Source: a virus. From it: a stretch of 39,215 bases of DNA. Shown one piece after another: positions 8,783 through 30,696 of the stretch. The notes beneath the pieces are model-generated. The model saw only the letters and a list, made by a program, of their open reading frames with translations. It ran no database searches and was not told the origin of the DNA. Both the position numbers and the translations under genes were made by a program. The stretch lies in IMG/VR virus record IMGVR_UViG_3300046331_000080, positions 1 through 39,215 of that record; one strand, 5' to 3'. The first letter of the stretch is position 1. The number at the start of each line of letters is the position of its first letter.

Positions 8783-8811
8783 ATTATACCACGAATAATT
8801 TAATTAGTCCA
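8783..8811 (-). promoter_or_regulatory. Candidate promoter immediately before DNA polymerase
   Basis: Minus strand: -35 TGGACT (8811-8806), 17-nt spacer, -10 TATAAT (8788-8783) preceded by TGG. The -10 carries the stop codon of the upstream gene. The polymerase ATG begins 6 nt after the -10, so a transcript starting at the usual distance would be leaderless or nearly so. The -10 is strong and the -35 only fair. Confidence 0.45.
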
Positions 8812-10356: not shown

Positions 10357-10601
10357 TTCTCACTCGCTTTCTTTAGTATTGCTCTAGCAAACTTATAAAT
10401 ATCTAACTCATGCGTATTGGAAAACCACCCACTAATACATGGCAAGTAAGACATACATTCCTTAGACAAGGCTTCAATCTCTTCTTTGCTTAACTCTTTA
10501 AGTCTAACTACCTCAACGACTTCGGTGTCTTCCCCTGCGACTCTACTGCTTGAGGCACAGGCACACCCTCGCTCGTAACAATCAATGTCAATGTATTTCA
10601 T
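10353..10601 (-). CDS. Hypothetical protein with FARAILKKASEK C-terminus, 82 aa
   Basis: A shorter relative of the next gene downstream: it shares ELSKEEIEAL (compare LSDEEIIDAF) and YKFARAILKKASEK. The N-terminus differs and is cysteine-rich (CYERGCACASSS), possibly metal binding but without a canonical spacing. Both ends sit in copies of the repeated junction. It probably arose by duplication and divergence, or by swapping the N-terminal part. Function unknown. Confidence 0.65.
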   Translation of the reverse strand: MKYIDIDCYERGCACASSSRVAGEDTEVVEVVRLKELSKEEIEALSKECMSYLPCISGWFSNTHELDIYKFARAILKKASEK

Positions 10602-10777
10602 TTCTCACTCGCTTTCTTTCCAGTAATAACTTCTAAACGATTAACAAGTAAAGCATTCTTGTATTCAAGTTCTTTAATGTAGTCTTGCATCTCCTTTAAC
10701 TTATCACAAGGTACTAGCACTGAATTGTTAGGTCTTGAATTAATACGTCTTGATCTTTCTAATTCTGTTTCACTCAT
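10598..10777 (-). CDS. Small coiled-coil hypothetical protein, 59 aa
   Basis: A 59-codon frame, MSETELERSRRINSRPNNSV to ITGKKASEK. A GGAGG box precedes the ATG and the stop overlaps the next ATG (ATGA). Residues 25-50 (KLKEMQDYIKELEYKNALLV) are a leucine-rich helix likely to form a short coiled coil. The last six residues and the junction DNA match the two downstream genes, although the rest of the protein is unrelated. Confidence 0.65.
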   Translation of the reverse strand: MSETELERSRRINSRPNNSVLVPCDKLKEMQDYIKELEYKNALLVNRLEVITGKKASEK

Positions 10778-12817: not shown

Positions 12818-12968
12818 ACATTCTATCGAATTGTCGTTTATGGTAATAGTCTTTAATGTCTTGCATGACGATGTCATAACCGTAAAGATCAATCTTATCG
12901 ACAATATCAGACAAAGTAAAGTGATACTCGTATTGTTCTGCTTCTATTGTGTCTTCAAATAACAACAT
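12801..12968 (-). CDS. Small hypothetical protein, 55 aa
   Basis: A 55-codon frame beginning MLLFEDTIEAEQYEYHFTLS and ending RQFDRMYEAEF. AAGGA lies upstream of the ATG, and the gene fills the space between the promoter at 13038-13066 and the primase operon. The C-terminal half is helical and tyrosine-rich (MQDIKDYYHKRQFDRM). It would be the first gene on the transcript from that promoter. No family recognised. Confidence 0.62.
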   Translation of the reverse strand: MLLFEDTIEAEQYEYHFTLSDIVDKIDLYGYDIVMQDIKDYYHKRQFDRMYEAEF

Positions 12969-13037: not shown

Positions 13038-13066
13038 AGTATATCATAAAATTATCTAGGTGTCTA
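13038..13066 (-). promoter_or_regulatory. Sigma70-type promoter for the primase-helicase operon
   Basis: Minus strand: -35 TAGACA (13066-13061), 17-nt spacer, -10 TATACT (13043-13038), with TGA just before the -10 as an extended element. It lies in a 150-bp AT-rich gap (12969-13118) that holds no gene and carries repeated ACTATATAAG strings downstream of the -10. It would drive the gene at 12968 and then primase-helicase. Confidence 0.7.
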
Positions 13067-16506: not shown

Positions 16507-16970
16507 TTTAGATCCTTTAATTAGTTGTTAAGTTAGTTACTTGCTACAGTTATAACTCTACTCTGATCATTAAATAATTCTAATTGTATTTATCTATTAA
16601 AACTATAATCTCAATAGTTTTTCTTAAACAGACCGGAAAGCCTTTGTTTATATAGAAAACTGCGATCATGACCTAGTCTATAGTAACCCCTATTAAATCA
16701 TTTAAATTGATCCTAGAGCGTTTAAATGGCTTTTAGAGGCATGGATATAAATACAGTATAAAAGGCATGGAATACTTACTAATAAATATATAGTATTACT
16801 TTATAGATCATATAGTTATATTATATATAATTGTATACTGTTATTTGCTAATTGGTGGCAGAGTCAAGAGCTATAGAGTATCTTATAGGGATCTTCAATG
16901 CTTCACCCTTTCGTGACCTTGTCAAGAACTATTTGAGTACTTGAGTAGATTAGTCGACTATTAGTCTTCT

Positions 16971-17014
16971 ATCTTATGTCTTATATGATCTATCTTATAT
17001 CTTATGTCTTATAT
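16971..17014. repeat. 16-bp direct repeat ATCTTATGTCTTATAT, two copies
   Basis: Perfect copies lie at 16971-16986 and 16999-17014, 28 bp apart, with a partial copy (ATCTTATA) between them at 16992-16999. The second runs into a palindromic GTCTTATATAAGAC. It is the clearest iteron-like element of the divergent region. Confidence 0.75.
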
Positions 17015-17252
17015 AAGACCTAGACAATCTACAAAGTTATATAATGTTAATCTATAAAGTGACGGGGGAGGGGGTAGACTTTCTTCGAAAACTCCAGCAA
17101 CCCTCTAACGCACCTAAAAAGTAAAAACAAGCAATACCTCTAAAAGCTCTTTAAACGCTCTCTATTGAGTTATTTAGAGTTACCCTAGTCTAGGTATTAC
17201 TTTATATTGTTTATTGCTCTAAGAGGCTCTAAAGAGGTCTACGGAGGATGGA

Positions 17253-17283
17253 CACCGAAGGCTAAGATGTTCACCGTAGGCTA
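17253..17283. repeat. 12-bp direct repeat CACCGWAGGCTA, two copies
   Basis: Copies at 17253-17264 and 17272-17283 differ at one position and are 19 bp apart, about two helical turns. They lie about 155 bp upstream of the rightward -35 box. A dimeric regulator or replication-initiation site is possible. Confidence 0.65.
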
Positions 17284-17438
17284 CATTAGAGTACATCTAC
17301 TATGTTAGTAGTCACTAACGTCTGTTACAGCTTCCCTATACCCAGAACAGGTACACATAATGTACTACCTTGTAGCTATATGTATCATATACTATACATT
17401 GTATACAATAAGAAACATAAATATAGTTCATAAAGTAC

Positions 17439-17467
17439 TTGACAAATCAATAAAAGTATGATATAAT
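17439..17467 (+). promoter_or_regulatory. Consensus sigma70 promoter, rightward arm
   Basis: Perfect TTGACA (17439-17444), exactly 17 nt, perfect TATAAT (17462-17467), with TGA giving an extended -10. The spacer end AAAAGTATGA is almost identical to that of the promoters at 21817 and 30000. It leads into a leader of about 140 nt before terS. Confidence 0.9.
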
Positions 17468-17497
17468 AGATCTATAGAGAACATAGATGTAACTTAG

Positions 17498-17579
17498 ATA
17501 GTTATAACTATATTAATAATATAACTATATAAGTAACTTTAAAGCAAACATCTAAGTAAACATAGCAGTTACTTTAAAG
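17498..17579 (+). repeat. Repeats in the terS leader
   Basis: Downstream of the promoter, ATAGTTATA (17498-17506) is inverted as TATAACTAT (17520-17528), and TATAACTATAT is directly repeated (17503-17513, 17520-17530). ACTTTAAAG occurs at 17536-17544 and 17571-17579. The leader RNA may fold, and terminase expression could be controlled post-transcriptionally. Confidence 0.5.
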
Positions 17580-17613
17580 ATACATTAAAGTAGATCTCCT
17601 TAAAGGAAAAAGA

Positions 17614-18042
17614 TTGAAAGAAGATAATAATATTGTGTCTATTAACATAGATGATCCTGTCTCAGTATCGTCTAAGCCACGACGAGGAAGACCTCCAAAG
17701 GCTCTCGTCGAGTCTAAGAAGCTAGGCAATAGAGGCAAAGTAGGTAGACCTTCAGGAGACGCTGCTAGGATTCAAGAGATGAAAGCTAGACTCTTGAGTA
17801 CTACAGGTAGTAAAGTTATTAATAAGATTGTATCTATTGCTATGGATGACAATCATGCAGGACAGATGGCTGCTTTGAAGATGTGTATGGATCGTGTCTT
17901 ACCAACTTCATTGTTTGAGAAGGATGCTAAAGGTCAACGCAATGCTGTAACAATTAACATTACTGGCATTGGTGAAGCTAAGGTAGAACAAGCTGAGATT
18001 ATAGATAATGACTACGAGGACGTAGACTATAATGAATCTTAA
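17614..18042 (+). CDS. terS: Terminase small subunit (putative)
   Basis: The DNA-recognition part of the packaging motor, inferred mainly from direct coupling (11-bp overlap) to the large subunit. The 142-residue protein has two AT-hook-like motifs near the N-terminus (PRRGRPPK, KVGRPSGD), a helical core (STTGSKVINKIVSIAMDDNH) that would oligomerise, and an acidic C-terminus (NDYEDVDYNES). The start is TTG at 17614: there is no upstream ATG in frame, and AAAGGA lies 7 nt before it. It is the first gene of the rightward arm. Confidence 0.78.
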   Translation: MKEDNNIVSINIDDPVSVSSKPRRGRPPKALVESKKLGNRGKVGRPSGDAARIQEMKARLLSTTGSKVINKIVSIAMDDNHAGQMAALKMCMDRVLPTSLFEKDAKGQRNAVTINITGIGEAKVEQAEIIDNDYEDVDYNES

Positions 18043-19285
18043 CTTTGAACTCCTACCTTGGCAAAAAGAAGTATATACAAGCGACACAAGATTTAAAGTA
18101 ATTGTAGCTGGACGACGTTGTGGAAAGTCAAGACTCTCTGCAGTATCTCTACTCGTAGAAGGTCTACGCTGTCCACAAGGTAGTGCAGTAATGTACGTAG
18201 CACCCACTCAAGGGCAAGCCCGACAGATTATCTGGGATCTCTTGATGGAACTAGGAAGAGAGGTGATCTCATCTAGCCACGTTAACAATATGGACATTAC
18301 TCTGATCAATGGAGCTAAGATCTATGTTCGTGGTTCTGACCGTCCTGATACGCTACGTGGAGTTTCATTAACGTATCTGGTGCTGGACGAAGTAGCTGAC
18401 ATTAAGCAAGAGACTTGGGAGAAGGTATTACGTGCTGCCTTGTCTGATAAAAAAGGTAAAGCTTTATTTATTGGTACACCCAAAGGACGTAACTGGTTCT
18501 ATGATATTTATAATCTAGGACTAAAAGAAGAAGATGTAGAGTGGAAGAGTTGGCACTTCACTACTAAGGACAATCCTTTGATTGATCCTACAGAGATTGA
18601 AGGTGCTAAGAAGACATTAAGTAGTTTTGCTTTTAAACAAGAATACGAAGCTTCATTTGATAATGCTGGTACAGATACCTTCAAGGAAGCTTGGCTAAAG
18701 TTTGGTGAAGAGCCGGACAACGGTAACTACTACATTGCTATTGACTTAGCTGGTTTTGAGAACATAGGTATGAGTCAAGCTTCTAAGAAGCGACTAGACC
18801 AAACAGCTATATCAGTAGTTAAAGTAACTGAAGATGGTAAGTGGTGGGTCAATAAGATTGAACATGGTAGGTGGGATATCAAAGAGACCTGCCAACGCAT
18901 TATAAAGAACATTAAAGCGTTCCAACCTTCTGGTGTCGGTATAGAACGAGGATCTCTTAAAAACGCAGTGTTGCCCTATTTAAGCGATCTGATGAGGTCT
19001 AATAATACTTACTGCCATATTGAAGACTTGACGCACGGTAACAAGAAGAAAACAGAACGTGTTGTCTGGGCATTACAAGGTCGCTTTGAACACGGTAAAG
19101 TAACACTGAATGAAGATGAAGATTGGGATGAGTTCAGAGATGAATTTGTAATGTTCCCAACACCGCAGGTGCATGATGACTTACTGGACTCTCTAAGCTA
19201 CATAGACCAGTTAGCTGTAACAAGTTATTTTGCTGATGATGATAGTGAAGACCTTGAACCGCTCGACTGGATTTCTGGTTACTAA
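18032..19285 (+). CDS. terL: Terminase large subunit
   Basis: The packaging ATPase/nuclease (417 aa). Walker A AGRRCGKS (26-33, K32), Walker B LVLDE (D119/E120), a coupling-motif candidate FIGTPKG (146-152), then the RNase H-like nuclease domain beginning at IAIDLAG (D238) and ending with HDDLLDSLSY near residue 385. The length is compact for the family but all key elements are present. The start overlaps terS by 11 bp, with GAGG upstream. Confidence 0.95.
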   Translation: MNLNFELLPWQKEVYTSDTRFKVIVAGRRCGKSRLSAVSLLVEGLRCPQGSAVMYVAPTQGQARQIIWDLLMELGREVISSSHVNNMDITLINGAKIYVRGSDRPDTLRGVSLTYLVLDEVADIKQETWEKVLRAALSDKKGKALFIGTPKGRNWFYDIYNLGLKEEDVEWKSWHFTTKDNPLIDPTEIEGAKKTLSSFAFKQEYEASFDNAGTDTFKEAWLKFGEEPDNGNYYIAIDLAGFENIGMSQASKKRLDQTAISVVKVTEDGKWWVNKIEHGRWDIKETCQRIIKNIKAFQPSGVGIERGSLKNAVLPYLSDLMRSNNTYCHIEDLTHGNKKKTERVVWALQGRFEHGKVTLNEDEDWDEFRDEFVMFPTPQVHDDLLDSLSYIDQLAVTSYFADDDSEDLEPLDWISGY

Positions 19286-19295
19286 AGAGGAAAAC

Positions 19296-19817
19296 ATGGA
19301 AGAAGATCTATTTAATAGAGGATTACTACAATCTGTTACAAACGAACAAGATCCTAATTTTGTATCTCAAATTGCTAAAGAGTTTGCAGAAAAAGATTCC
19401 TATTTTAGACAGGTTTTAGGCGATGATATTATTAATCAAGGTATGCAACAATACGGCTTTGATTTCTTTAAGCTATTAGATCAACAGTTAATACAGAATC
19501 CAAATATTAATTTACAAGTTCAAGGAAACTCTGGTCAACTAGCACCTTCTCAGTTGGGCTTAAATCAAATGAGTTCACCTGCTATGGTAAACGCAAGGCT
19601 TGGCATAGAGCAAGATGGACTTAGAGCCGGTGTTAATAACGTGTTAGTGCAAATGCCTGACGGTAGTATTAAATCAATGCCTAAAATGTATGACGCTGGT
19701 TACAATACAAATCTTTTAGGGGGTGTTTTAGATATAGGTGCAGGTTATGTTCCTAAAGATGAAAAGATCCCTAAATCAATGTATAACATTAATGCTCGAT
19801 ACACTAAAAAGTTTTAA
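19296..19817 (+). CDS. Hypothetical protein between terminase and portal, 173 aa
   Basis: The start MEEDLFNRGLLQSVTNEQDP (19296) follows AAGAGG; an in-frame ATG at 19230 is rejected because it lies inside terL. The first half is helical with QDPNFVSQIAKEFAEKDSYF; the second is beta/turn-rich (QMPDGSIKSMPKMYDAGYN, LGGVLDIGAGYVPKDEKIP). It carries no membrane segment. Position between packaging ATPase and portal suggests a minor head or packaging role. Confidence 0.72.
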   Translation: MEEDLFNRGLLQSVTNEQDPNFVSQIAKEFAEKDSYFRQVLGDDIINQGMQQYGFDFFKLLDQQLIQNPNINLQVQGNSGQLAPSQLGLNQMSSPAMVNARLGIEQDGLRAGVNNVLVQMPDGSIKSMPKMYDAGYNTNLLGGVLDIGAGYVPKDEKIPKSMYNINARYTKKF

Positions 19818-19834
19818 TAAAGGAAACAGACATA

Positions 19835-21811
19835 ATGGCTGAAAATTACGAAGATAATAAAGAATATGAAGTAACAGAATCTGATAAAGAAATTGTTAGC
19901 TTTGTTGTTGGTCACTGTGACAAGTGGCGTGATCATCGTGATGTAAACTATCTAAGTAACTGGGATGAATACGAAAGATTATTCCGTGGTATCTGGGCTA
20001 GTGAAGACAAGATGCGTGAGTCAGAGAGATCGCGTATTGTAACACCAGCACTACAGCAAGCTATTGAAGGTAAGCAAGCTGAGATTAGTGAAGCAGTGTT
20101 CGGACGTGGTGAGTTCTTTGATGTTGTTGATGATCGTGTTGATCAAAACCCAGCAGACGTAGAACTTACTAAGCAACAAATGCATGAAGACTTCAAACGA
20201 AGCAAGATTAAGAAGTCATTAGACAATGTAATCCTACTTGGTGAGTTATTTGGTACAGGTATCGGTGAGATTACTATTAAAGATACGACTGTATTAGCCC
20301 CAGCTACCCAACCTATTCCCGGTGCTCAGGTAGCAGCTATTGGTGTACAAGAAACTAAACAGTTCTTAGTAGAACTAAACCCTATTCACCCACGTAACTT
20401 TCTTATCGAACCTAATGCACGTACAGTAGAAGATGCTTTAGGTGTAGCTATTGAAGAATATATGTCATTTCATACGATTGTTAAGGGTATGGAAGATGGT
20501 ATTTATCGTAAATGTGATATTACTCCTAGCTATGCTACGACAGATATTGAAAGAACACAAGAAGATGTAAACTATCAAGACGGTAAACTACGTGTTATTC
20601 GTTACTATGGTTTAGTTCCTCGTGAGTATCTAGAGCAATTAGAGAATGAAGAAGGTGAAGTAGTTGATTTATTCCCTGAAGACTCAGCAATGGATGACTA
20701 TGCTGACTTAGTTGAAGCTATCGTAGTGATTGCTGATGACGCACACCTTCTAAAAGCTGAAGCTAATCCTTATATGATGAAGGATCGCCCAGTAGTAGCA
20801 TACCAAGCTGACTCAATGCCCGGTAGATTCTGGGGTCGTGGTACAGCTGAGAAGGGCTACAATATGCAGAAAGCTATTGATGCTCAGATCCGTGCTCACT
20901 TAGACAGTTTAGCCCTAACTACTGCACCTATGATGGCTATGGACGCTACTCGTCTACCACGTGGTGCTAAGTATGAAGTTAAAGCAGGTAAGAATATGCT
21001 TGTTAATGGTAATCCTAATGAGATTATGATGCCGTTTAAGTTTGGTAACACTGATCCAGCTAATATGCAGACAGCTCAGACATTCCAGTCTATGCTTTTA
21101 CAAGCTACAGGCACTATGGACACAGCATCTATGCCTTCACAGGTAGCCGGTGGTGAAGCTTCTGGTGCAGGTTTGTCGATGGCTTTGTCTGGTTTGATGA
21201 AGAAGAACAAGCGTACTTTGATTAACTTCCAAGAAGACTTCTTGATTCCGTTTATTCAGAAATCAGCTTGGAGATTCATGCAGTTTGACCCTGAAAGATA
21301 TCCAGTTCAAGACTTCTTGTTCCTACCAGTATCTTCTATGGGTATGGTTGCACGTGAATACGAACAACAACAGATGGTTGGCTTGATGCAGACTTTAGGA
21401 AGTAGCCCTATTACTCCAGTATTGCTACAAGGTATCATTAAATCATCTAGCTTATCAAATCGTGAAGAAATTATTACTCAACTTCAGCAGATGTCTCAGC
21501 CAGATCCACAAGCACAGCAAGCTCAGATGCTTGATATGGCTCTTAAAGAGGCTTTGGTACAGAAAGCTCAGGCAGAAGCTGCTAAAGCTATGGCAGAGGC
21601 TCAAAAAGCCGGTGCTGAGGCTCAGGTAATTCCCGCTGAAGCCCAAGCTAAGTTAATCGCTGCAGCTTCTAAAAACACAGCTGATCCAATGGCTGATGAG
21701 TTTGAAAAGCGTATGGCTTTAGCAGATCGTTTGATTAAAGCAGAAGATATTAAATCAAATGAACGTATTGCTACTATGCAAATGCAAAATAAATCTATGA
21801 ATATGCAATAA
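19835..21811 (+). CDS. Portal protein
   Basis: A 658-residue head-tail connector ring subunit, sitting at the capsid vertex for DNA entry and tail attachment. The podovirus portal layout is visible: an acidic N-terminus, the FRGIWASEDKMRESERSRIV region, a wing with VVAYQADSMPGRFWGRGTAE and MQKAIDAQIRAHLDSLALTT, and a C-terminal Ala/Gln-rich coiled coil (KAQAEAAKAMAEAQKAGAEA) that would form the barrel inside the head. AAAGGAAA lies about 10 nt before the ATG. A promoter follows immediately. Confidence 0.92.
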   Translation: MAENYEDNKEYEVTESDKEIVSFVVGHCDKWRDHRDVNYLSNWDEYERLFRGIWASEDKMRESERSRIVTPALQQAIEGKQAEISEAVFGRGEFFDVVDDRVDQNPADVELTKQQMHEDFKRSKIKKSLDNVILLGELFGTGIGEITIKDTTVLAPATQPIPGAQVAAIGVQETKQFLVELNPIHPRNFLIEPNARTVEDALGVAIEEYMSFHTIVKGMEDGIYRKCDITPSYATTDIERTQEDVNYQDGKLRVIRYYGLVPREYLEQLENEEGEVVDLFPEDSAMDDYADLVEAIVVIADDAHLLKAEANPYMMKDRPVVAYQADSMPGRFWGRGTAEKGYNMQKAIDAQIRAHLDSLALTTAPMMAMDATRLPRGAKYEVKAGKNMLVNGNPNEIMMPFKFGNTDPANMQTAQTFQSMLLQATGTMDTASMPSQVAGGEASGAGLSMALSGLMKKNKRTLINFQEDFLIPFIQKSAWRFMQFDPERYPVQDFLFLPVSSMGMVAREYEQQQMVGLMQTLGSSPITPVLLQGIIKSSSLSNREEIITQLQQMSQPDPQAQQAQMLDMALKEALVQKAQAEAAKAMAEAQKAGAEAQVIPAEAQAKLIAAASKNTADPMADEFEKRMALADRLIKAEDIKSNERIATMQMQNKSMNMQ

Positions 21812-21816
21812 AGTAC

Positions 21817-21845
21817 TTGACTTTTGAGTAAAAGTATGTTATAAT
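21817..21845 (+). promoter_or_regulatory. Sigma70-type promoter ahead of scaffold/capsid genes
   Basis: TTGACT (21817-21822), 17-nt spacer, TATAAT (21840-21845) with an extended TGT. The spacer ends TAAAAGTATGT as in the 17.4-kb promoter, and both have AAAGTAC before the -35. It starts 6 bp after the portal stop. Confidence 0.88.
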
Positions 21846-21891
21846 AGTTTCACCATATCACATATTAACTCCAAAGTCAAGGAAAAAGTTA

Positions 21892-22137
21892 ATGAATAGA
21901 GAACTACAAGATTACTACGAAGAACGATTTTCAATGTGTTCTTCTACAGGCTGGAAACAACTCATTGAGGATGTTCAGCTAATGAAGCCTGAAGTAGAAA
22001 GCATCAAAGGTGCTAATACTTTGGAGCAGTTACATTTTAAGAAGGGTGAGTTATCAATTATTAATTGGTTACTTAACCTAGAAGGTGCAAGCAGAGAAGT
22101 CTACGACCAACTCCAAGAGGAGAAGGACAATGAGTAG
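21892..22137 (+). CDS. Hypothetical protein, 81 aa
   Basis: A helical 81-residue protein (MNRELQDYYEERFSMCSSTG ... YDQLQEEKDNE) with the element LEQLHFKKGELSIINWLLNL in the middle. An AAGGAAAA box precedes the ATG. It is the first gene after the second plus-strand promoter and overlaps the zinc-ribbon gene by 8 bp. Similar small helical proteins occur next to portal/scaffold genes in other podoviruses, but no function is known to me. Confidence 0.68.
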   Translation: MNRELQDYYEERFSMCSSTGWKQLIEDVQLMKPEVESIKGANTLEQLHFKKGELSIINWLLNLEGASREVYDQLQEEKDNE

Positions 22138-22363
22138 AAGAATGTTTGACTTTCGTTGTGAGAACAAACATAACACTGAACGATTCGTGGATGAAACGGT
22201 AACCGTTGTTGAGTGTTGTGAATGTGGTGACACAGCTAGTAAGGTAATTACTGGATGTGGCATATACCTTGAACCTTTCTCAGGGGATCACCCATCGAGT
22301 TATGACCGGTGGAATCGTGTTCGTGCAGAGAAGCTGGTTCAGGAGCAAAAGCGTAACTCATAA
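22130..22363 (+). CDS. Small zinc-ribbon (FmdB-like) protein, 77 aa
   Basis: The protein from MSRRMFDFRCENKHNTERFV has metal ligands C10, H14, C29 or C30, and C32 (ECCECGD), followed by ASKVIT, as in FmdB-type putative regulatory zinc ribbons. The ATG at 22130 has GGAG upstream; an in-frame ATG at 22085 lies inside the preceding gene. Its C-terminus is basic (RWNRVRAEKLVQEQKRNS). Such proteins are frequent just upstream of scaffold genes; their role is not established. Confidence 0.75.
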   Translation: MSRRMFDFRCENKHNTERFVDETVTVVECCECGDTASKVITGCGIYLEPFSGDHPSSYDRWNRVRAEKLVQEQKRNS

Positions 22364-22426
22364 GTGTGCTCTTGACACCGAGTTATTTTTAAGAATCCTA
22401 GAATCGCATAGCGACAGGAGATACAA

Positions 22427-23245
22427 ATGGCTGAATTTATCGAACTGCAAGACGAAGAATCATTTAACGAAGACAACACTACTAGTATTAATGAGACCCC
22501 AGAGGGTAACTCTCAAGATACACAAGAAGAGGTTGTAATACCAAGTAAGTATCAAAACAAATCCCTAGAGGAAATTGTTAAGATGCATCAAGAAGCTGAG
22601 AAGCTTATTGGTAGACAAGCCCAAGAAGTAGGTGAAGTCCGTAAGTTAGCTGATGAATTGATTAAGCAACAACTCGAAAAGAAGGTAAAACCTTCAGATG
22701 ATTTTCAGCCAGTGGCTCAAGAGTTTGATTTTTTTGACGACCCTAAAAAAGCTGTCAATCAGGCTGTGGAGAATAATCCAGTTCTCAAACAAATGCAAGA
22801 GCAACTAGTTCGCCAAAAGCAAATAGAAGCTTTAGCAGTTATTGAGAAGAAGCATCCTGATTTTGTAAACGTAGCACAGAGTTCTGAATTCAATGATTGG
22901 ATTGAAGGCTCTAAAGTACGTAAGCAATTGTATCAAGCAGCAAATAACTATGACTCAGATGCAGCACTAGAGTTGTTAGATACCTACAAATCCTTAAAAG
23001 GGATTCGAGAGCAGACTATCCAGTCAGCTGACGAAGGTGTTAAACAAGTCGGTGATCAGCAAAGACGACAAGCTATTAAAGCAGCAGGGGTACAGACCGG
23101 TGGTACAGGTGAATCAACAAAGCCAACTTACAGATATGCAGATATTATGAAGATGATGATGTATGACCGTGAACAGTACAACACAAGAGCCGATGAGTTC
23201 TTGCAAGCGTACCAAGAAGGTCGCATCAAAGGTCGACCAAATTAA
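22427..23245 (+). CDS. Scaffolding protein
   Basis: An acidic, highly helical 272-residue protein directly before the capsid gene. Landmarks: a low-complexity acidic N-terminus (LQDEESFNEDNTTS), KYQNKSLEEIVKMHQEAEKL (a segment typical of podoviral scaffolds), long coiled-coil stretches, and a basic C-terminus (YQEGRIKGRPN) likely to bind capsid protein. It would guide procapsid assembly and leave before maturation. GGAG precedes the ATG. The 63 bp upstream hold a TTGACA without a matching -10. Confidence 0.9.
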   Translation: MAEFIELQDEESFNEDNTTSINETPEGNSQDTQEEVVIPSKYQNKSLEEIVKMHQEAEKLIGRQAQEVGEVRKLADELIKQQLEKKVKPSDDFQPVAQEFDFFDDPKKAVNQAVENNPVLKQMQEQLVRQKQIEALAVIEKKHPDFVNVAQSSEFNDWIEGSKVRKQLYQAANNYDSDAALELLDTYKSLKGIREQTIQSADEGVKQVGDQQRRQAIKAAGVQTGGTGESTKPTYRYADIMKMMMYDREQYNTRADEFLQAYQEGRIKGRPN

Positions 23246-23264
23246 TTAACTAGGAGATTTAAAA

Positions 23265-24170
23265 ATGGCATTAGGATCAGGACATCAAACAATTACAACT
23301 GCAGCTAAGTTTATTCCAGAAGTATGGAGCGACGAAGTTGTAGCCACTTACAAAAAGAGCTTGGTAGCAGCAAACCTTATCAAGAAGATGAACTTCAAAG
23401 GTAAAAAGGGTGACGCAGTACACATCCCTAAACCGGGTCGTGGTTCAGCTAACGCTAAGTCAGCTAACGCACAAGTAACATTAAACACAGATACAGCAAC
23501 TGAAGTTATTGTTAACATCGATCAACACTGGGAATTCTCAGTAATGATTGAAGATATCGTAGCTGCACAATCTTTAGCTTCTATGCGTCAGTTCTACACT
23601 GATGACGCTGGTTACGCTTTAGGTCGTAAAGTAGATTCATTGATCCTTGAGTTGGGTCGTGGCGTTAACGGTGGTGATGGTACAGCTGCTTACACAGGTG
23701 CTTACTCAGGTGCTGACGGTACAACTGCTTACACAGGTACAGCTGGTGCATTAACTGATGCAGCTATTCGTCGTTCAATTCAACGTTTAGATGACAACGA
23801 TGTACCAATGGACGGTCGCTTCTTGATCGTTCCACCATCAACACGTAACACATTGATGGGTATCCAGCGTTTCACTGAGCAAGCTTTCGTTGGTGAAGCT
23901 GGTTCAAGCAACACAATCCGTTCTGGTGAAGTAGGTAACGTGTACGGTATTCCAGTATTCGTAACTTCTAACGCTGACGCAGCAACTGACGGTGATCGTA
24001 TTTGCTTGTTAGGTCACAAAGACTTCGCAGTTCTAGTTGAGCAAATGGGTGTTCGTACACAGACTCAATACAAACAAGAATATCTAGGTGACTTGTTCAC
24101 TGCAGATACATTGTTTGGTGTTAAAGAGTTGCGTGACGGTTCAGCAATCGCTTTAGCAGTACCAGCTTAA
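23265..24170 (+). CDS. Major capsid protein
   Basis: The 301-residue shell protein, identified by position after the scaffold, codon-optimised appearance, and HK97-fold-like sequence: FIPEVWSDEVVATYKKSLVA near the start, IDQHWEFSVMIEDIVAAQSL in the middle, RFLIVPPSTRNTLMG, and VYGIPVFVTSNADA toward the end. A glycine/threonine-rich segment at about 138-160 repeats the unit DGT-x-AYTG and may be a surface loop. A strong terminator follows 10 bp after the stop, as expected for the most abundant late product. AGGAG precedes the ATG. Confidence 0.93.
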   Translation: MALGSGHQTITTAAKFIPEVWSDEVVATYKKSLVAANLIKKMNFKGKKGDAVHIPKPGRGSANAKSANAQVTLNTDTATEVIVNIDQHWEFSVMIEDIVAAQSLASMRQFYTDDAGYALGRKVDSLILELGRGVNGGDGTAAYTGAYSGADGTTAYTGTAGALTDAAIRRSIQRLDDNDVPMDGRFLIVPPSTRNTLMGIQRFTEQAFVGEAGSSNTIRSGEVGNVYGIPVFVTSNADAATDGDRICLLGHKDFAVLVEQMGVRTQTQYKQEYLGDLFTADTLFGVKELRDGSAIALAVPA

Positions 24171-24180
24171 TAGCATGATT

Positions 24181-24206
24181 GATCCCTCTTCGGAGGGGTC
24201 TTTCTT
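24181..24206 (+). terminator. Intrinsic terminator after the capsid gene
   Basis: Stem GATCCCTC (24181-24188), UUCG tetraloop (24189-24192), stem GAGGGGTC (24193-24200), then TTTCTT. Eight pairs including one G-T, and an exceptionally stable loop. The T-tract is interrupted by a C, so partial readthrough to the tail genes is plausible. Confidence 0.85.
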
Positions 24207-24220
24207 AAGGGCTCTACGGA

Positions 24221-24235
24221 GTCTTTAATAAAGAC
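24221..24235 (+). other. Small hairpin before the 49-codon gene
   Basis: GTCTTT-AAT-AAAGAC forms a 6-bp hairpin with a 3-nt loop. It immediately precedes the AAGGAG ribosome-binding site of the next gene, so it may act as a transcript-end stabiliser or tune initiation. Confidence 0.4.
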
Positions 24236-24247
24236 AAGGAGTTTCAC

Positions 24248-24397
24248 ATGGCTAAGTTCAGAGATACCGCTACAGGTAATACATTTGAGTTCACCTCAGA
24301 TCATGACATTCAATCAATGCGTAAGCACCCAGAGTATACAGAAGTAAAAGAAGAAGTAAAACAACCTAAGAAAACTAAGCAATCAGAGGAAGTTTAA
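24248..24397 (+). CDS. Small hypothetical protein, 49 aa
   Basis: A 49-codon frame starts MAKFRDTATGNTFEFTSDHD and ends in a Lys/Glu-rich tail (KKTKQSEEV). AAGGAG lies 7 nt before the ATG, and the stop abuts the ATG of the fibre gene. Short proteins of this kind, with a beta-hairpin N-terminus (aromatic, F-T-S) and charged tail, sit after capsid genes in many podoviruses. Function unknown; perhaps a minor head protein. Confidence 0.72.
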   Translation: MAKFRDTATGNTFEFTSDHDIQSMRKHPEYTEVKEEVKQPKKTKQSEEV

Positions 24398-26479
24398 ATG
24401 GCTATTTATCGTGGAGCAGGTGGTGCTGGTGATGCAGTAGCTGATTCTTCAAGTGAAGCAATTATAACTGTCCAAGCTAAGAATGAAGCGTTGGCTGCTC
24501 AAGCTGCTGCTGAGGCTGCAAGAGATGCTGCTCAACTAGCAGAGACTAACGCAGAATTAGCTGAAACTAATGCAGAGACTGCAGAGACTAATGCTGAAAC
24601 AGCTGCGACAACTGCAACAGCTGCTAAAGATATTGCTGTTACACAAGCTACTAATGCTGGTTATTTAGCTTATGATGCTAGTGTATCTGCATCTAATGCA
24701 GCTGCCTCGGCTTCTAGTGCTAATACTTCAGCATCAAGTGCTAGTACTTCTGCTTCTGCTTCAGCAACATCAGCAACTAATGCTGCCACTTCGGAAACTG
24801 CTGCAAGTAATTCAGCTAGTGCAGCTGCAACTTCTGCTACAAACGCTGCTTCTTCAGCATCTTCAGCAAGTTCTTCAGCATCTACAGCAACAACTAAAGC
24901 TTCTGAAGCTTCTACCTCTGCAAGTAATGCAGCAGCATCTGAAGCCAGTGCTTCAAGTAGTGCAACAACTGCCAGTACTCAAGCAGGCATAGCTACAACT
25001 AAAGCTTCTGAAGCATTGACTTCTGCTAATAACGCATCAACTTCTGCAAGTACAGCAACTACACAGGCTTCTAATGCAAGCACATCAGCAACTAATGCAG
25101 CATCTTCAGCATCAAGTGCTTCTACATCAGCAAGCAATGCATCAACTTCAGCATCAAACGCAGCAAGTTCTGCAACTGCAGCAGCAGCTAGTTTTGATTC
25201 TTTTGATGATAGATATCTAGGAGCTAAAACTTCAGACCCTACTGTCGATAACGATGGTAATACTTTAATCACAGGTGCTCTGTATTTCAGTACAGGTGAT
25301 CAGATTATGAAAGTATATACAGGCACTTCTTGGTTAGCTGCCTTTGCTTCATTGTCTGGTGCTCTAATTGCAACTAACAATCTATCAGACTTAGCAAGTG
25401 CTTCAGCAGCTAGAACAAACATTGGTTTAGGTAATGTAACAAACGAATCTAAAGCTACGATGTTTACTGATCCAACATTTACAGGGTTAGGTCACTTTAC
25501 TAACGGTGTACAGATAGATGGTAACTTAACAGTATCTGGAACAACTGTAACTATTAATGCTACAGACTTAGCTATTGAAGATAACATGATTTATCTTAAC
25601 AACGGCTCTGCTGTAACAAACCCAGACTTAGGTATCGCAGGTAACTATAACGATGGTACATATCGTCATGCAGGATTCTTCAGAGATGCTACTGATGGTC
25701 GTTGGAAAGTCTATAAGAACTATACACTAGAACCAGACGCAACAGCTTTCATTGACACAAGCCATTCATCTTTTGCTTTGGCTGATATGCAAGCAGATAA
25801 CTTCTACGGTGCTTTAACTGGTAACGTAACAGGTAACGTAACAGGTGATGTGTCAGGTAATGCAGGTACGGTTACTAACGGTGTATATACATCAGGTAGC
25901 TATGCAGATCCTTCATGGTTAACAAGTCTTGCTGAGACTAAAGTATTGCCTGTTCAGACAGGAAACTCAGGTAAGTACTTATCAACTAACGGTACTTCAA
26001 CTTCTTGGCAGAACGTACCAGCAGGTTATACAGATTCTAATGCAAGAGCTGCTATCTCAAGTACTGCTCCAGTTTCATACTCATCATCTACTGGTGTTAT
26101 TAGTATGGCTGCTGCATCTACCTCAGCTGATGGATATCTAACATCTACTGACTGGAATACATTTAACGGTAAGTATTCTACTGGCGGTGCTTTAGGTACT
26201 CCTTCTAGTGGTACATTAACTAACTGTACAGGTTACACATACGCTAACTTATCAGGTACTGTTCCTACGTGGAATCAGAATACTACTGGTTCTTCAGCTT
26301 CTTGTACGGGTAACTCTGCGACAGCTACAACTTCAACTAGATTAGCATCAACTAACTGGGTTGTTGAAGAATCAGGTGGTGTTTTACACTTTAAACATGG
26401 TGGAGTTAGTAAAGCTAAACTAGACTCATCAGGTAACTTTACTTGTATTGGTAACGTAGTAGCTTACGGAACAATATAA
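24398..26479 (+). CDS. Tail fibre protein with Ala/Ser-rich trimeric shaft
   Basis: A 693-residue fibre. A short head domain (MAIYRGAGGAGDAV) is followed from about 28 to 265 by a low-complexity, coiled-coil-like shaft built from short repeats of A, S, T, N and E (for example AETNAETAETNAETA, later SNASTSASNAASSA). Then come DDRYLGAKTSDPTVDNDGNT, a beta-helical or beta-prism region with NLTVSGTTVTINATDLAIED, repeated LTGNVTGNVTGDVSGN, and a C-terminal GGVLHFKHGGVSKAKLDSSG. It would trimerise and reach toward the host receptor. The DNA of the shaft is itself repetitive. Confidence 0.88.
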   Translation: MAIYRGAGGAGDAVADSSSEAIITVQAKNEALAAQAAAEAARDAAQLAETNAELAETNAETAETNAETAATTATAAKDIAVTQATNAGYLAYDASVSASNAAASASSANTSASSASTSASASATSATNAATSETAASNSASAAATSATNAASSASSASSSASTATTKASEASTSASNAAASEASASSSATTASTQAGIATTKASEALTSANNASTSASTATTQASNASTSATNAASSASSASTSASNASTSASNAASSATAAAASFDSFDDRYLGAKTSDPTVDNDGNTLITGALYFSTGDQIMKVYTGTSWLAAFASLSGALIATNNLSDLASASAARTNIGLGNVTNESKATMFTDPTFTGLGHFTNGVQIDGNLTVSGTTVTINATDLAIEDNMIYLNNGSAVTNPDLGIAGNYNDGTYRHAGFFRDATDGRWKVYKNYTLEPDATAFIDTSHSSFALADMQADNFYGALTGNVTGNVTGDVSGNAGTVTNGVYTSGSYADPSWLTSLAETKVLPVQTGNSGKYLSTNGTSTSWQNVPAGYTDSNARAAISSTAPVSYSSSTGVISMAAASTSADGYLTSTDWNTFNGKYSTGGALGTPSSGTLTNCTGYTYANLSGTVPTWNQNTTGSSASCTGNSATATTSTRLASTNWVVEESGGVLHFKHGGVSKAKLDSSGNFTCIGNVVAYGTI
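24480..25190 (+). repeat. Degenerate codon-level repeats in the fibre shaft
   Basis: The stretch is built from near-identical short units rich in GCA, TCT, ACT and AAT triplets, such as GCATCAAGTGCTTCTACATC variants. The reading frame is conserved while the unit length varies. Such DNA can change length by slippage or recombination, altering the reach of the fibre. Confidence 0.6.
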
Positions 26480-27633
26480 TGGCTTTACCAGCATCCGGTA
26501 CAATAGCAATCTCACAAATCTCTACAGAGCTAGGTAGAGCTTCTACAGCTAATACTAGCTTAGGAGAGACAGACTCAAGAAACTTAGCTGGTGTACCTAG
26601 TGGTACTATTGCAATGAGTAACTTCTATGGGAAGTCTGGAGCGTTTTCATTTACTATATCATCTCACCAAGCTAATGCAAACTTAAGAACTCTAGCTGTT
26701 AACGCAGGATGGAATCAATCTTCTGCTGTAATAGCTACTCTTGCTTCCGGTTATTATATTTATTCAACAGACATTAATACACCTGCTTTAACTATTAATG
26801 GTTCGTTCCCCGGTGGTGTGACTTTAGTTAATAACGGTTACATTATGGGTATGGGAGGGCACGGCGGTGGTTCATATTGGCTAACAACTTCTTCAAATAC
26901 TTATGTTCTTACTTCTGCTTATGAACAATCTGGCGGTGGAAATGCAATTTCTTTAGGTGTGTCTTGTACAATACAAAATAATTCGTATATAGCAGGTGGA
27001 GGCGGAGGCGGCGGTGGTGGTGCAGGTAATTCTTCTTCTAATATAAACGCTATAACTGTTTTAGGTGGTGGTGGTGCGGGTGGAGGACAAGGAGGAACAC
27101 ATAAAAACAGAGCTGAAAACGTGTCCCCTGCTATGGAAAGTTATGTTTATGGTGGTGCTGGTGGATCAATAGGTTCTTCTGGATCAAATGGTGTAGCACC
27201 TTCTTATAGTACAGCATCAGGAGGTGGTGGTGGAAGGGTTTTACCCGGAACAAGAGCAGCTACTGTATATACTGCTTGGGGGACATCTAATTCAACATCT
27301 GGATATGGTGGAGAAGGCAATATCGCAGGCGGTAATAGTTCCTTTGTGGCAGGCACAGGAGGGACAACTTATGCAGGTCAAGCTATTGCAGGATTAGGCG
27401 GTCAATCAGGTGGTTCAGGTGGTTCTTCTACAGGTTCTGCTTATGGTTTTTTTAACCATGCAGGCGGAGGAGGTGGTGGTTGGGGTTCTTCTGGAGGTTC
27501 AGGAACTGGTAGAAATTCTTATTTAGGAATTTCAGGTACTTATACTGGTTCAAGTGGAGGAAAATGTGTTCATTTAAACGGTTATTCTATTACATGGGCA
27601 GCAACAGGAACTAGATATGGAGCAATATCTTAA
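26479..27633 (+). CDS. Glycine-rich tail tip/adhesin protein
   Basis: The N-terminus (MALPASGTIAISQISTELGR, then NLAGVPSGTIAMSNFYGKSG) is a common phage tail-protein module that docks to a fibre. After a beta-rich middle, residues 130-384 carry many polyglycine tracts (AGGGGGGGGGAGN, GGGGAGGGQGG, GGAGGSIGSSG), like the glycine-rich adhesin tips of T4-type fibres, which form a sandwich of polyglycine helices with variable receptor-binding loops. The ATG overlaps the fibre stop. Receptor binding is inferred from this resemblance. Confidence 0.82.
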   Translation: MALPASGTIAISQISTELGRASTANTSLGETDSRNLAGVPSGTIAMSNFYGKSGAFSFTISSHQANANLRTLAVNAGWNQSSAVIATLASGYYIYSTDINTPALTINGSFPGGVTLVNNGYIMGMGGHGGGSYWLTTSSNTYVLTSAYEQSGGGNAISLGVSCTIQNNSYIAGGGGGGGGGAGNSSSNINAITVLGGGGAGGGQGGTHKNRAENVSPAMESYVYGGAGGSIGSSGSNGVAPSYSTASGGGGGRVLPGTRAATVYTAWGTSNSTSGYGGEGNIAGGNSSFVAGTGGTTYAGQAIAGLGGQSGGSGGSSTGSAYGFFNHAGGGGGGWGSSGGSGTGRNSYLGISGTYTGSSGGKCVHLNGYSITWAATGTRYGAIS

Positions 27634-27875
27634 TGGAAATTAAATATGCATTATTAAATCCAGCAGATGGGCAATATCAAATGTTTATTACTGAAGATGA
27701 AGTAAAAACTGAACTATTAAAAAGAGCTTTATCATTTTACATTTCTCATGCTCACGGTGTTTTATATTCAAAAGTAACAGTAGATGAAAACGGATGGGAA
27801 GAATGGGCTGCTGTTGATAGTGTTAAAGAAACAGATTGTGATACGGTTTCTAAATATATACAAGAACAATTATGA
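27633..27875 (+). CDS. Hypothetical protein in the fibre module, 80 aa
   Basis: An 80-residue, acidic, mixed alpha/beta protein (MEIKYALLNPADGQYQMFIT ... SKYIQEQL). One-base overlap with the adhesin gene and ATGA with the next. Small proteins directly following adhesins are often fibre-assembly chaperones; that is a positional inference. No motif recognised. Confidence 0.62.
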   Translation: MEIKYALLNPADGQYQMFITEDEVKTELLKRALSFYISHAHGVLYSKVTVDENGWEEWAAVDSVKETDCDTVSKYIQEQL

Positions 27876-28393
27876 TTATTCCTGACACTTGGAACTCTAC
27901 TGAAGAGTTTGCTAAATGGTATGTAGACAATGGATTACCTTTCATGCCTCCAGTAGGTGTTGAAGTGTTTAACTCTGATGATGCTACTGCATTCTGTATG
28001 TTTAGAAAAGGACAGTTTCAGGTTGAGTTATACCTAATATTCCCTCAACCGTATGTACCTATTCATGAACACCCGGGAGTAGAAGTAATAGAAACACCTG
28101 TAATGGAAGGTGTTGTAACATTGATACCTACTTTAAAAAGTGGTCAATCTCACGGTCAAGGTATTAGAGATAATGCACAAGAAAGAGGATACCCTTTAGT
28201 ATCTGTTCAAAGATGGCATCCTAAACTGACACCTACTACAGTAGCTACTCAGTGGAAGGGTAAGACAGTAGGGGTGAAACATGAAGCACTTATTAGAAGA
28301 TTTAATCCAAATGCTTTTATACATGAAGGATATGCAGATACAACAAAGACAATGGATTACTTAGAGGAATTAAAAAATGCCACGAATTCTTGA
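27872..28393 (+). CDS. Cupin-like protein, 173 aa
   Basis: The segment LYLIFPQPYVPIHEHPGVEV (54-72), with H65, H67 and E71, resembles the metal-binding first motif of the cupin barrel (H-x-H followed by E); a later H116 in RWHPKLTPTT could complete the site. Strands flank it on both sides. Phage relatives occur in fibre cassettes, with activity unknown to me. It could be a metal-dependent enzyme modifying a sugar or protein side chain, or a structural barrel. It overlaps its neighbours by 4 and 17 bp. Confidence 0.6.
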   Translation: MIIPDTWNSTEEFAKWYVDNGLPFMPPVGVEVFNSDDATAFCMFRKGQFQVELYLIFPQPYVPIHEHPGVEVIETPVMEGVVTLIPTLKSGQSHGQGIRDNAQERGYPLVSVQRWHPKLTPTTVATQWKGKTVGVKHEALIRRFNPNAFIHEGYADTTKTMDYLEELKNATNS

Positions 28394-29039
28394 AGCTGAA
28401 TTAATGAGTGAACCTATACAGGTTTCTTCTTATTCAGAATATGATAAAACACCTCTAATAGAATTATATGTATCTAAACTAAACCTCAACCCAACTGGTA
28501 AAGTTTTAGATATTGGTTGTGGGTCTGGTGATTACTTTGATAAACTAACTGAAACATATCCTAATGTACAGTTTACAGGTATTGATGGTTCGTTAGAGAT
28601 GCTTGAAAAAGCTAAGGATAAAATACCAGCAACTGTTACTTTAGAACATCGTGTAATACCTGATGCAACACTTACAGATACCTATGACGGTGTTATTAGC
28701 AGTATGATGCTTCATCAGTTAGCTGATCCAATGTGTTTATGGAATACTATAAACCAAGTTAGTCGAGTCTGTACTAAAGTTTTAATCATGGATATGGTAA
28801 GAGTAGAAGACGCAGAAGCTAGAAAAAAGATTATTGATTATTATACACCTGTAGATAAGTATCCTCAATTTAGTATTGACTTTGATAACTCAATGAAAGC
28901 AGCTTTTACAGTAGAAGAAGTACAACAACAGTTAATAGATGCAAAGCTAAAGGGTTTAGAAGTTTCTACTTTAGAACTAGATGCATCATGGCAATTATTA
29001 TTTATTACAGGAACAGTATGGCTACAGATAACGGAGTAG
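28377..29039 (+). CDS. SAM-dependent methyltransferase, class I
   Basis: A 220-residue Rossmann methyltransferase: motif I KVLDIGCGSGDY (42-53), acidic loop FTGIDGS (D70) that binds the ribose hydroxyls, YDGVISSMMLHQLADP (motif IV region), then VLIMDMVRVEDAE. It lacks the (D/N)PPY motif of adenine DNA methylases and a cysteine-nucleophile PC motif, so a small-molecule, sugar or protein O/N-methylase is more likely than DNA modification. GAGG lies 9 nt before the first ATG (28377); MSEPIQV ten codons later is an alternative start. Confidence 0.85.
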   Translation: MPRILEAELMSEPIQVSSYSEYDKTPLIELYVSKLNLNPTGKVLDIGCGSGDYFDKLTETYPNVQFTGIDGSLEMLEKAKDKIPATVTLEHRVIPDATLTDTYDGVISSMMLHQLADPMCLWNTINQVSRVCTKVLIMDMVRVEDAEARKKIIDYYTPVDKYPQFSIDFDNSMKAAFTVEEVQQQLIDAKLKGLEVSTLELDASWQLLFITGTVWLQITE

Positions 29040-29233
29040 ATCTTTATAAATACGGTAAGCTTACTGCTCAGGTAGAAGCTATGGAAAAGAAGATAGACAA
29101 GCTAGAGTCCGGCATGGCAGAACTATTAGAATTAGCTAATAAGTCTAAGGGTGGGTTTTGGATGGGTATGGTCATTGCCTCTGGTATTGGCGGTATTGTT
29201 ACTTACATAACAAGTCATTGGACAATTAAATGA
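29018..29233 (+). CDS. Small coiled-coil protein with C-terminal membrane segment, 71 aa
   Basis: The start MATDNGVDLYKYGKLTAQVE (29018) has AGGAA upstream; the longer frame from 28988 lies in the methyltransferase gene. A coiled coil (AMEKKIDKLESGMAELLELA) is followed by one membrane segment (GFWMGMVIASGIGGIVTYIT). The layout recalls XhlA-type holin-associated or tail-tip membrane proteins. It is far from the lysis cassette, so a virion role is also possible. Confidence 0.65.
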   Translation: MATDNGVDLYKYGKLTAQVEAMEKKIDKLESGMAELLELANKSKGGFWMGMVIASGIGGIVTYITSHWTIK

Positions 29234-29574
29234 GAGAACTCACAGTAGGTAAAAACCTCACGGCAGGTGTAGCTAACACAGTTTATACAGTCCCTAAAGG
29301 TTGTAAAGCTATTGCTACATTGTTAATGTTATCTAACTATGGCGGTAGTTCTAAATCAGTTACAGCTTCTTGGTACGACCATAGCACAACTACTTCAGTA
29401 ACTATCATTGGTGGACACTCTGTTGGTGCAGGTAGCTACTTAATGTTTGCTGATGGTCGCATGGTCATGGATGAGTATGATGAACTAAGGGTAACTCCTG
29501 AAGCATCTAGCTCATTCTCAGTTATCTTTACTGTAGAGATTCTACAGAGTACAGCTTATCAGAACGGGAGTTAA
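29230..29574 (+). CDS. Putative virion structural protein, 114 aa
   Basis: A beta-rich 114-residue protein (MRELTVGKNLTAGVANTVYT ... QSTAYQNGS) with alternating hydrophobic strands, resembling small jelly-roll or Ig-like decoration or tail-attachment proteins. It has no catalytic motif. The ATG overlaps the upstream stop. Its place just before the conserved 48- and 86-residue proteins in the structural arm supports a virion role. Confidence 0.68.
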   Translation: MRELTVGKNLTAGVANTVYTVPKGCKAIATLLMLSNYGGSSKSVTASWYDHSTTTSVTIIGGHSVGAGSYLMFADGRMVMDEYDELRVTPEASSSFSVIFTVEILQSTAYQNGS

Positions 29575-29576
29575 TA

Positions 29577-29723
29577 ATGAAACAAGGTTTATACAGTAAT
29601 ATCGCAGCCAAGAAAGCTCGTATCAAGGCTGGCTCAGGTGAGAAGATGCGTAAGGTAGGTAGCAAAGGTGCTCCGTCAGCTAAAGACTTTAAGGATGCTG
29701 CTAAGACAGCTAAGAAGAAATAA
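29577..29723 (+). CDS. Conserved small basic phage protein, 48 aa
   Basis: A 48-codon frame, MKQGLYSNIAAKKARIKAGS then GEKMRKVGSKGAPSAKDF. I recognise MKQGLY, AGSGEKMRKxGSKGAPxA as a signature of short proteins next to the DUF6321-type gene in many aquatic podoviruses. It is strongly basic, so DNA binding or packaging within the head is possible. It begins 2 bp after the preceding stop and shares one base with the next ATG. Confidence 0.85.
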   Translation: MKQGLYSNIAAKKARIKAGSGEKMRKVGSKGAPSAKDFKDAAKTAKKK

Positions 29724-29983
29724 TGAAGAAAGACTCTAGACTAGCTAAAGCAGGTGTATCAGGTTATAACAAACCTAAAGCTACACCAAGTCACCCTACT
29801 AAGTCTCATGTAGTAGTGGCTAAGACAGGTGATGAAGTTAAGACTATTCGCTTTGGACAACAAGGTGTTAAGGGTAGTCCTGATGGCTCAGCAAGGAATA
29901 AAGCCTTTAAAGATCGCCATGCTAAGAACATATCTAAAGGTAAGATGTCAGCTGCGTACTGGGCTGATAAAGTCAAGTGGTAA
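29723..29983 (+). CDS. DUF6321-like small virion-associated protein, 86 aa
   Basis: The pattern SHVVVAKTGDEVKTIRFGQQ, then KAFKDRHAKNISKGKMSAAY and WADKVKW is the conserved core of a family found widely in phages (DUF6321 as I recall). The protein is basic and short. Co-occurrence with the preceding 48-residue protein is typical. Function not established; the late promoter at 30000 follows directly. Confidence 0.85.
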   Translation: MKKDSRLAKAGVSGYNKPKATPSHPTKSHVVVAKTGDEVKTIRFGQQGVKGSPDGSARNKAFKDRHAKNISKGKMSAAYWADKVKW

Positions 29984-29999
29984 AAATAACAAATAAAGC

Positions 30000-30028
30000 T
30001 TGACATTTTAGATAAAGTATGTTATAAT
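30000..30028 (+). promoter_or_regulatory. Consensus sigma70 promoter ahead of tail-tube/internal genes
   Basis: TTGACA (30000-30005), exactly 17 nt, TATAAT (30023-30028) with extended TGT. The spacer ends ATAAAGTATGT, matching the promoters at 17439 and 21817. It lies in the 65-bp gap after the DUF6321-like gene. Confidence 0.9.
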
Positions 30029-30048: not shown

Positions 30049-30696
30049 ATGCAATATATTCAATTAGTTAATTCAGTATTAAGACGACTACGAGAGACTG
30101 AAGTTTCTTCCGTAGCTGATAATGCTTATTCTAAAATGATAGGTGAGTTTGTTAACGACGCTAAACGCCAAGTAGAAGATGCTTATGCATGGAATGCTTT
30201 ATCAGATACATTATCTGCAGTAACAACTCCTACTATTTTTAACTATTCATTAGTAGGTTCTGGACAACGATTTAGAATGCTTGATGTTATTAATGATACT
30301 GATGACTTCTTCTTAAAGTATCAGACTACTTCTGAGATGAATAGATTGTTCTTGATGACTAGCTCTGAGAATGGTTCTCCAGCGTACTACAACTTTAACG
30401 GTGTTGATGATAATGGAGATACTCAGGTAGATCTATACCCTATTCCTGATGGTGTTTATAACATACGCTTTAACATTACTAAACCACAGTTACCTTTATC
30501 TACAGATACTGCTAGATTATTAGTACCTAGTGAGCCTGTAATCTTTAACGCCTGTGCAAGAGCCTTTGCTGAACGTGGTGAAGATGGCGGTATTGCATCA
30601 GGTGAGATGTATGCATTATATAACCAATCATTAGCAGATGCTATTGCTATTGAGAGTAGTCGTTATTTAGAAGAATCTGAGTGGATGGCTTATTAA
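30049..30696 (+). CDS. Tail tubular protein A / gp11-like adaptor
   Basis: A 215-residue protein positioned as the adaptor between portal and tail nozzle. Typical features: an N-terminal helix region MQYIQLVNSVLRRLRETEV followed by FVNDAKRQVEDAYAWNALSD (the V-x2-AK-x2-V-x4-W pattern of these adaptors), beta-rich middle, then VPSEPVIFNACARAFAERGE and a terminal helix. AAGGA precedes the ATG. It is first on the transcript from the 30.0-kb promoter and abuts the nozzle gene. Confidence 0.82.
   Translation: MQYIQLVNSVLRRLRETEVSSVADNAYSKMIGEFVNDAKRQVEDAYAWNALSDTLSAVTTPTIFNYSLVGSGQRFRMLDVINDTDDFFLKYQTTSEMNRLFLMTSSENGSPAYYNFNGVDDNGDTQVDLYPIPDGVYNIRFNITKPQLPLSTDTARLLVPSEPVIFNACARAFAERGEDGGIASGEMYALYNQSLADAIAIESSRYLEESEWMAY

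Follow-up and report, generated by a model that had tools for sequence, protein, structure and literature searches.

Promoter sites ahead of the structural genes

The window analysed here, the whole 39,215 bases of the IMG/VR virus record IMGVR_UViG_3300046331_000080, is of podovirus type and has A or T at about 60% of its positions. Its leftward genes encode a primase/helicase, DNA polymerase A, exonucleases, ribonucleotide reductase and a GP88 homologue. The rightward genes encode terminase (large subunit at 18032–19285, plus strand; phrog_2, 1.9e-49), portal, a scaffold-like protein, capsid (major capsid protein at 23265–24170, plus strand; phrog_267, 3.4e-52) and tail, including a tail-tube-like tail protein (30049–30696, plus strand; phrog_10775, 2.9e-13). 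Our subject is three plus-strand promoter sites that precede units of this rightward set: PT (17439–17467; TTGACA-17-TATAAT), 175 nucleotides (nt) before terS of the terS/terL unit; PS (21817–21845; TTGACT-17-TATAAT), 75 nt before the gene at 21892, with which the scaffold/capsid unit begins; and PTT (30000–30028; TTGACA-17-TATAAT), 49 nt before the tail-tube gene. A first-pass annotation had reported these boxes with their exact 17-nt spacing, an AAAG(TA)C stretch before the -35 box, a spacer block common to all three and a position ahead of terminase, scaffold/capsid and tail-tube units, and the sequences and distances confirm each of these observations. It also called the promoters late, a label that rests on gene content only.

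PT reads aaagtac TTGACA aatcaataaaagtatga TATAAT, PS reads aaagtac TTGACT tttgagtaaaagtatgt TATAAT and PTT reads aaagc TTGACA ttttagataaagtatgt TATAAT. All three spacers contain the identical block AAAGTATG (17453–17460, 21831–21838 and 30014–30021). As in extended -10 promoters, TGA, TGT and TGT stand before TATAAT in PT, PS and PTT, respectively, and the -35 boxes TTGACA, TTGACT and TTGACA, each at 17-nt spacing, agree with the UP/-35/TGn/-10 class. In PT, TATGA occupies 17457–17461 and AAA 17453–17455, with an A-tract and C (ataaagtac) immediately upstream.

The window contains four matches to TTGACN-N14..18-TATAAT, where 0.22 are expected: PT, PS, PTT and a minus-strand site whose spacer is 14 nt long. 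The first-pass annotation had proposed a profile search of the genome and its relatives, which we carried out with a profile of 41 columns made from the relatives alone. This profile ranked PT (40.7 bits), PTT (38.3 bits) and PS (37.6 bits) at the top, followed by window sites of 19.5 and 12.8 bits, with a best score of 12.3 bits in ten Markov random genomes.

The 19.5-bit site, on the minus strand at 13038–13066, reads TAGACA-17-TATACT with TATGA before the -10 box and precedes the gene starting at 12904 and the primase/helicase. Its counterparts in relatives G001 and G002 keep TAGACA with a non-consensus -10 box, and relative G004 has a 24.6-bit site before the primase. The 12.8-bit site (8783–8811, minus strand; TGGACT-17-TATAAT, TGG before the -10 box) is a possible weak promoter, barely above random, 35 nt before the DNA polymerase gene; the identical 29-mer is present in G001. 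The genome appears to rely on a single promoter style whose strength is graded. This style does not appear to be purely late, since sites built alike but weaker stand before replication genes.

Elsewhere in the window, a terminator-like hairpin with a TTCG loop (24181–24200, plus strand) lies directly 3' of the major capsid gene, which ends at 24170, and probably ends the scaffold/capsid unit. About 900 bp at 16507–17430 are gene-free on both strands and carry TCTTATGTCTTATAT repeats. No strong minus-strand early promoter lies in this 16.5–17.4 kb gap in the window. Relatives have leftward TTGACA-16-TATAAT-like sites approximately 480–750 nt from PT, a set too mixed for us to claim as a promoter class. 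A methyltransferase-like gene (28377–29039; phrog_4752, 6.1e-9) lies amid the tail genes.

Conservation of the sites and of their spacers

A DNA search with 13.5 kb of the window against phage records returned no matches, and relatives were therefore taken from IMG/VR. We found no close named relative: tblastn with terminase and portal gave remote matches only, and the closest cultured DNA polymerase, at 49.7%, belongs to pelagiphages HTVC104P/103P. Relatives' loci were collected through the terminase (eighty) and through the tail tube (eighty), and the records of eight relatives were scored, all whole except one that is about 1 kb short at its end. Counterparts scoring 28–40 bits lie 27–217 nt before terS in 8/8 relatives for PT, 75–82 nt before the same gene in 8/8 for PS, and 40–53 nt before the tube gene in 7/8 for PTT. 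These landmark sites hold in relatives with terS identity of 36–51%. By this conservation, PT, PS and PTT qualify as genuine promoters. Because the same landmarks carry sites down to 36% terS identity, the comparison indicates that the three promoters are old, at fixed places and each inherited separately within the clade.

One relative, G007 (contig of L065), has TAAAAT as the -10 box of its PS and tail-tube promoters. On the minus strand of G007, at 10517–10621, a 66-amino-acid open frame matches sigma70 region 4 (E 1.5e-10).

To see which columns are kept, we counted bases at 47 dereplicated sites chosen solely on hexamers and 17-nt spacing. In the spacer, A-22 to A-19 are conserved with a peak at A-21 (40/47), as are T-17 (38/47), R-16 (41/47), T-15 (37/47) and G-14 (36/47), and A-6 is also constrained, whereas G-18 (16/47) and A-16 (19/47) are weakly kept. 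Upstream, C-36 (40/47), A-42 (40/47) and A-40 (42/47) stand out, with A kept at -44 and -42 to -40; these A-rich columns represent only the proximal edge of the -60 to -40 UP region. An operator in the form of a palindrome (AAGTACTT or AAGCTT) spanning the -35 box was considered and rejected, as the A-run and C persist in relatives whereas the palindrome does not.

Although the window and relative G001 carry AAAGTATG without variation, it is found in 5/8 near-clade sites and in 3/39 sites outside the window clade. Among the latter, TG is present in 29/39 (2.0 expected from composition), T-R-T-G in 26/39 and AAAGTA in 3/39. At the same promoters in relatives, AAAGTA is replaced by AAATTG, AATTTG, AAACTG or AAGTTG. 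The tail-tube counterparts drift through aaagtatg, aaattgtg, aatttgtg, aaactgtg and aaaatgtg, with TG kept and the hexamers near consensus. The first-pass annotation had held that its reading would fall if relatives kept only the -35 and -10 boxes: AAAGTA is indeed lost, but the extended -10 and the A-run are kept along with the boxes. Judged from these columns, the constrained part of the spacer is mainly T-R-T-G (-17 to -14), the extended -10 element, plus the A-run. We read the exact AAAGTATG as a variant at the level of the clade that is modestly preferred in general, rather than as a sign that a special factor is at work.

Leader elements downstream of PS and PT

Downstream of PS, the leader can form a hairpin at 21864–21893 on the plus strand, ATTAACTCC...GG-aaaa-AGTTAAT, in which CTCC-loop-AAGGAAAAAG lies between two stem arms. 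The predicted structure encloses the Shine–Dalgarno sequence AAGGA (loop and inner stem), and its 3' arm extends to the start codon ATG at 21892. Across 13 distinct PS leaders, 90.6% of pair cells are standard and 19 cells have changed on both sides, a covariation that 0/500 shuffles reach; slid partners give at most 46%. In a scan of the collection, among the matches listed, 20 arm combinations with an upstream extended -10 pair at frequencies of 1.00, 0.85, 0.85 and 0.65 at positions 1–4, compared with about 0.5 when shuffled, and 0/2,000 shuffles reach the total. The scan has a built-in control, as 30 listed arm combinations without an upstream extended -10 pair at the shuffled level. The evidence for the hairpin is this covariation, because the window copy taken by itself has no remarkable predicted energy. 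Rfam gave no leader match at gathering scores.

A related candidate leader motif, GAT-CTCCTTAAAGGAAAAAG-ATT, stands before terS at 17593–17615 on the plus strand, where the start codon is TTG at 17614. The arrangement CTCC-N3..12-AAGGAAAAAG is found twice in the window against 0 expected. The terS leader hairpin is not the predicted minimum-energy fold. The terS leader at 17473–17615 (140 nt) folds better than its shuffles (z -2.16) and has repeated TTTAAAG/TTAAAGTA words, and its ACATTAAAGTAGATCTCC is retained in near relatives. An antisense 'promoter' at 21880–21852 was rejected: TTGACTTTGGAG in it complements CTCC...GTCAA of the conserved leader, and the site scores only 5.2 bits.

By virtue of its position over the Shine–Dalgarno sequence and start codon, the PS leader hairpin may gate translation, and we infer that it is a better candidate for regulated timing than the promoter spacer.

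Origin and reading of the shared spacer

The conserved parts of the spacer, TRTG and the A-run, lie at positions where RNA polymerase is known to touch promoters. The motif tgTGnT at -17 to -12 has been described as a double-stranded binding element for sigma70 (PMC2613000), an AT-tract just upstream of the -10 box works through R451 of sigma70 (PMC7229825), and promoter positions -22 to -18 are able to contact beta' (PMC10911233). The TRTG at -17 to -14 directly before TATAAT places PT, PS and PTT beside the extended -10 (TGn/TRTGn) promoters of sigma70 and sigmaA; classical members of that class lack a good -35 box, whereas here a near-perfect -35 box stands at a 17-nt spacing. The A-run at -21 to -19 occupies the same place as the R451 AT-tract and the beta' Z element (-22 to -18). 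However, the AT-tract effect was shown at promoters with poor -35 boxes, and here the base at -18 is G; likewise, the Z-element consensus AACCT is unmatched, with AAAAG at -22 to -18 in PT and PS and TAAAG in PTT. The closest likeness is to T4 early promoters, 'uber' UP/-35/TGn/-10 promoters with additional consensus regions (PMC2988021), in which all host-polymerase contact elements are near consensus (PMC2988021, PMC2613000). In contrast to T4, the strongest copies here precede structural genes, in a podovirus-type genome of about 39 kb that has no recognisable T4 regulators and is known from sequence.

PT, PS and PTT are thus very probably full-strength host sigma70-type promoters with all double-stranded contact elements, and we infer that host RNA polymerase would read them, and at high strength. 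Their element set would comprise a proximal-UP A-tract, cTTGAC(A/T), the 17-nt spacer, the A-run at -21 to -19, TRTGn and TATAAT. The shared half of the spacer would then be mainly the extended -10 plus an A-run tolerated or preferred by the host polymerase; each promoter would have been inherited at its own gene, with the likeness among them arising from all being held near one optimum. Three points weigh against this account. AAAG is somewhat commoner than permuted words at promoters of unrelated viruses (60 or more flank-independent clusters, versus 28 for GAAA and 43 for AAAT), an excess that the sigma70 consensus alone does not explain and that amounts to a mild preference, with no specificity for this clade. 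The within-genome spacer identity given below was reached by 49/5,000 label shuffles, such that weak homogenisation is possible. Finally, perfect host promoters on structural genes leave timing unexplained. With respect to the first point, AAAG before TRTG may be mildly preferred by bacterial RNA polymerases in a way so far unrecognised. The first-pass annotation had considered the AAAGTA part of the spacer to lie beyond what sigma70 requires; this stands for AAA(G), for which the consensus does not account, but not for TATG, which is the extended -10 element.

The likeness of the three sites had also been attributed to the copying of a promoter cassette, whether by duplication of one promoter to three places or by gene conversion that keeps the copies alike. 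Several observations are compatible with such copying: eight spacer bases are identical in all three window sites, ataaagtacTTGAC is exactly common to two of them, related leader motifs lie downstream of two of the promoters, and across nine genomes spacers are somewhat more alike within a genome (0.59) than between non-orthologues of different genomes (0.54). Orthologous identity (0.60) is nevertheless at least as high as this paralogous value, and the AAAG block alone has no within-genome excess (814/5,000 shuffles). Counting from the start of the -35 box, the blocks from -300 to -8 and from +29 to +300 are no more similar among PT, PS and PTT than shuffled sequence, and the 5' half of the spacer has a mean identity of 0.46, a value that 12% of shuffles reach. 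The likeness thus stops at the functional core, and in relatives a separate counterpart of each site is present at the corresponding gene. These data give no support to recent copying or to continuing conversion; an ancient duplication, since eroded, is possible, but as an explanation of the shared sequence we regard the cassette as unlikely.

That a phage-encoded or special host factor reads AAAGTA and marks the promoters as late is, in our estimation, very improbable. The invariance of AAAGTATG in the window and G001, the mild enrichment of AAAG in unrelated viral promoters and the many small early open reading frames without known function would all suit such a factor. Yet AAAGTA is lost at the same promoters in relatives, and AAAGTATG in the same -35/-10 frame occurs in at least 117 bacterial genome stretches from several phyla, including those of Clostridia, Saccharibacteria and Alphaproteobacteria, and viral contigs contain at least 120 more such stretches. 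The TATG and A/T part also recurs in the weaker early-strand promoters, and with -35 and -10 boxes so close to perfect, an activator would hardly be needed. Searching the window for Sigma70_r4 gave no match although the controls were positive, and PHROGs scans of its open reading frames found no RNA polymerase or sigma factor. A PF00940 search had no match anywhere and lacked its control match too, and is not taken as proof of absence. The earlier proposal that a host factor reads the spacer therefore survives in its ordinary sense only, with the RNA polymerase holoenzyme as that factor. The notion that these are no promoters but matches that arose by chance in AT-rich DNA, which the base composition and a case built from sequence only might invite, has a negligible probability given three near-consensus sites at three unit starts (0.22 expected) and the conservation of the same landmarks at 36–51% terS identity.

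If PT, PS and PTT are host sigma70-type promoters, they differ from the phiEco32/7-11, T4 late and Mu late promoters, which likewise drive structural genes but need a phage factor; the boxes of the present sites follow the host consensus, and the searches above revealed no factor of this kind. A literature search on late podovirus promoters yielded nothing on this clade. Multi-element host sigma70-type promoters are already known in kind; the leader hairpin is new. We tentatively suggest, as a rather unlikely possibility, that the promoters are open from the start of infection, that the capsid unit is timed post-transcriptionally, that PS and the Shine–Dalgarno hairpin form one unit delaying or gating translation of the capsid unit through a phage protein or RNA refolding, and that AAAG separately reflects a mild polymerase preference.

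Together, these comparisons suggest that an uncultured podovirus-type clade relies, for its structural genes, on promoters that match the host consensus and combine all contact elements, and that a shared spacer sequence is by itself no signal of a phage factor. The linked leader hairpin provides a concrete candidate for how such phages may time capsid synthesis without a polymerase or sigma factor of their own.

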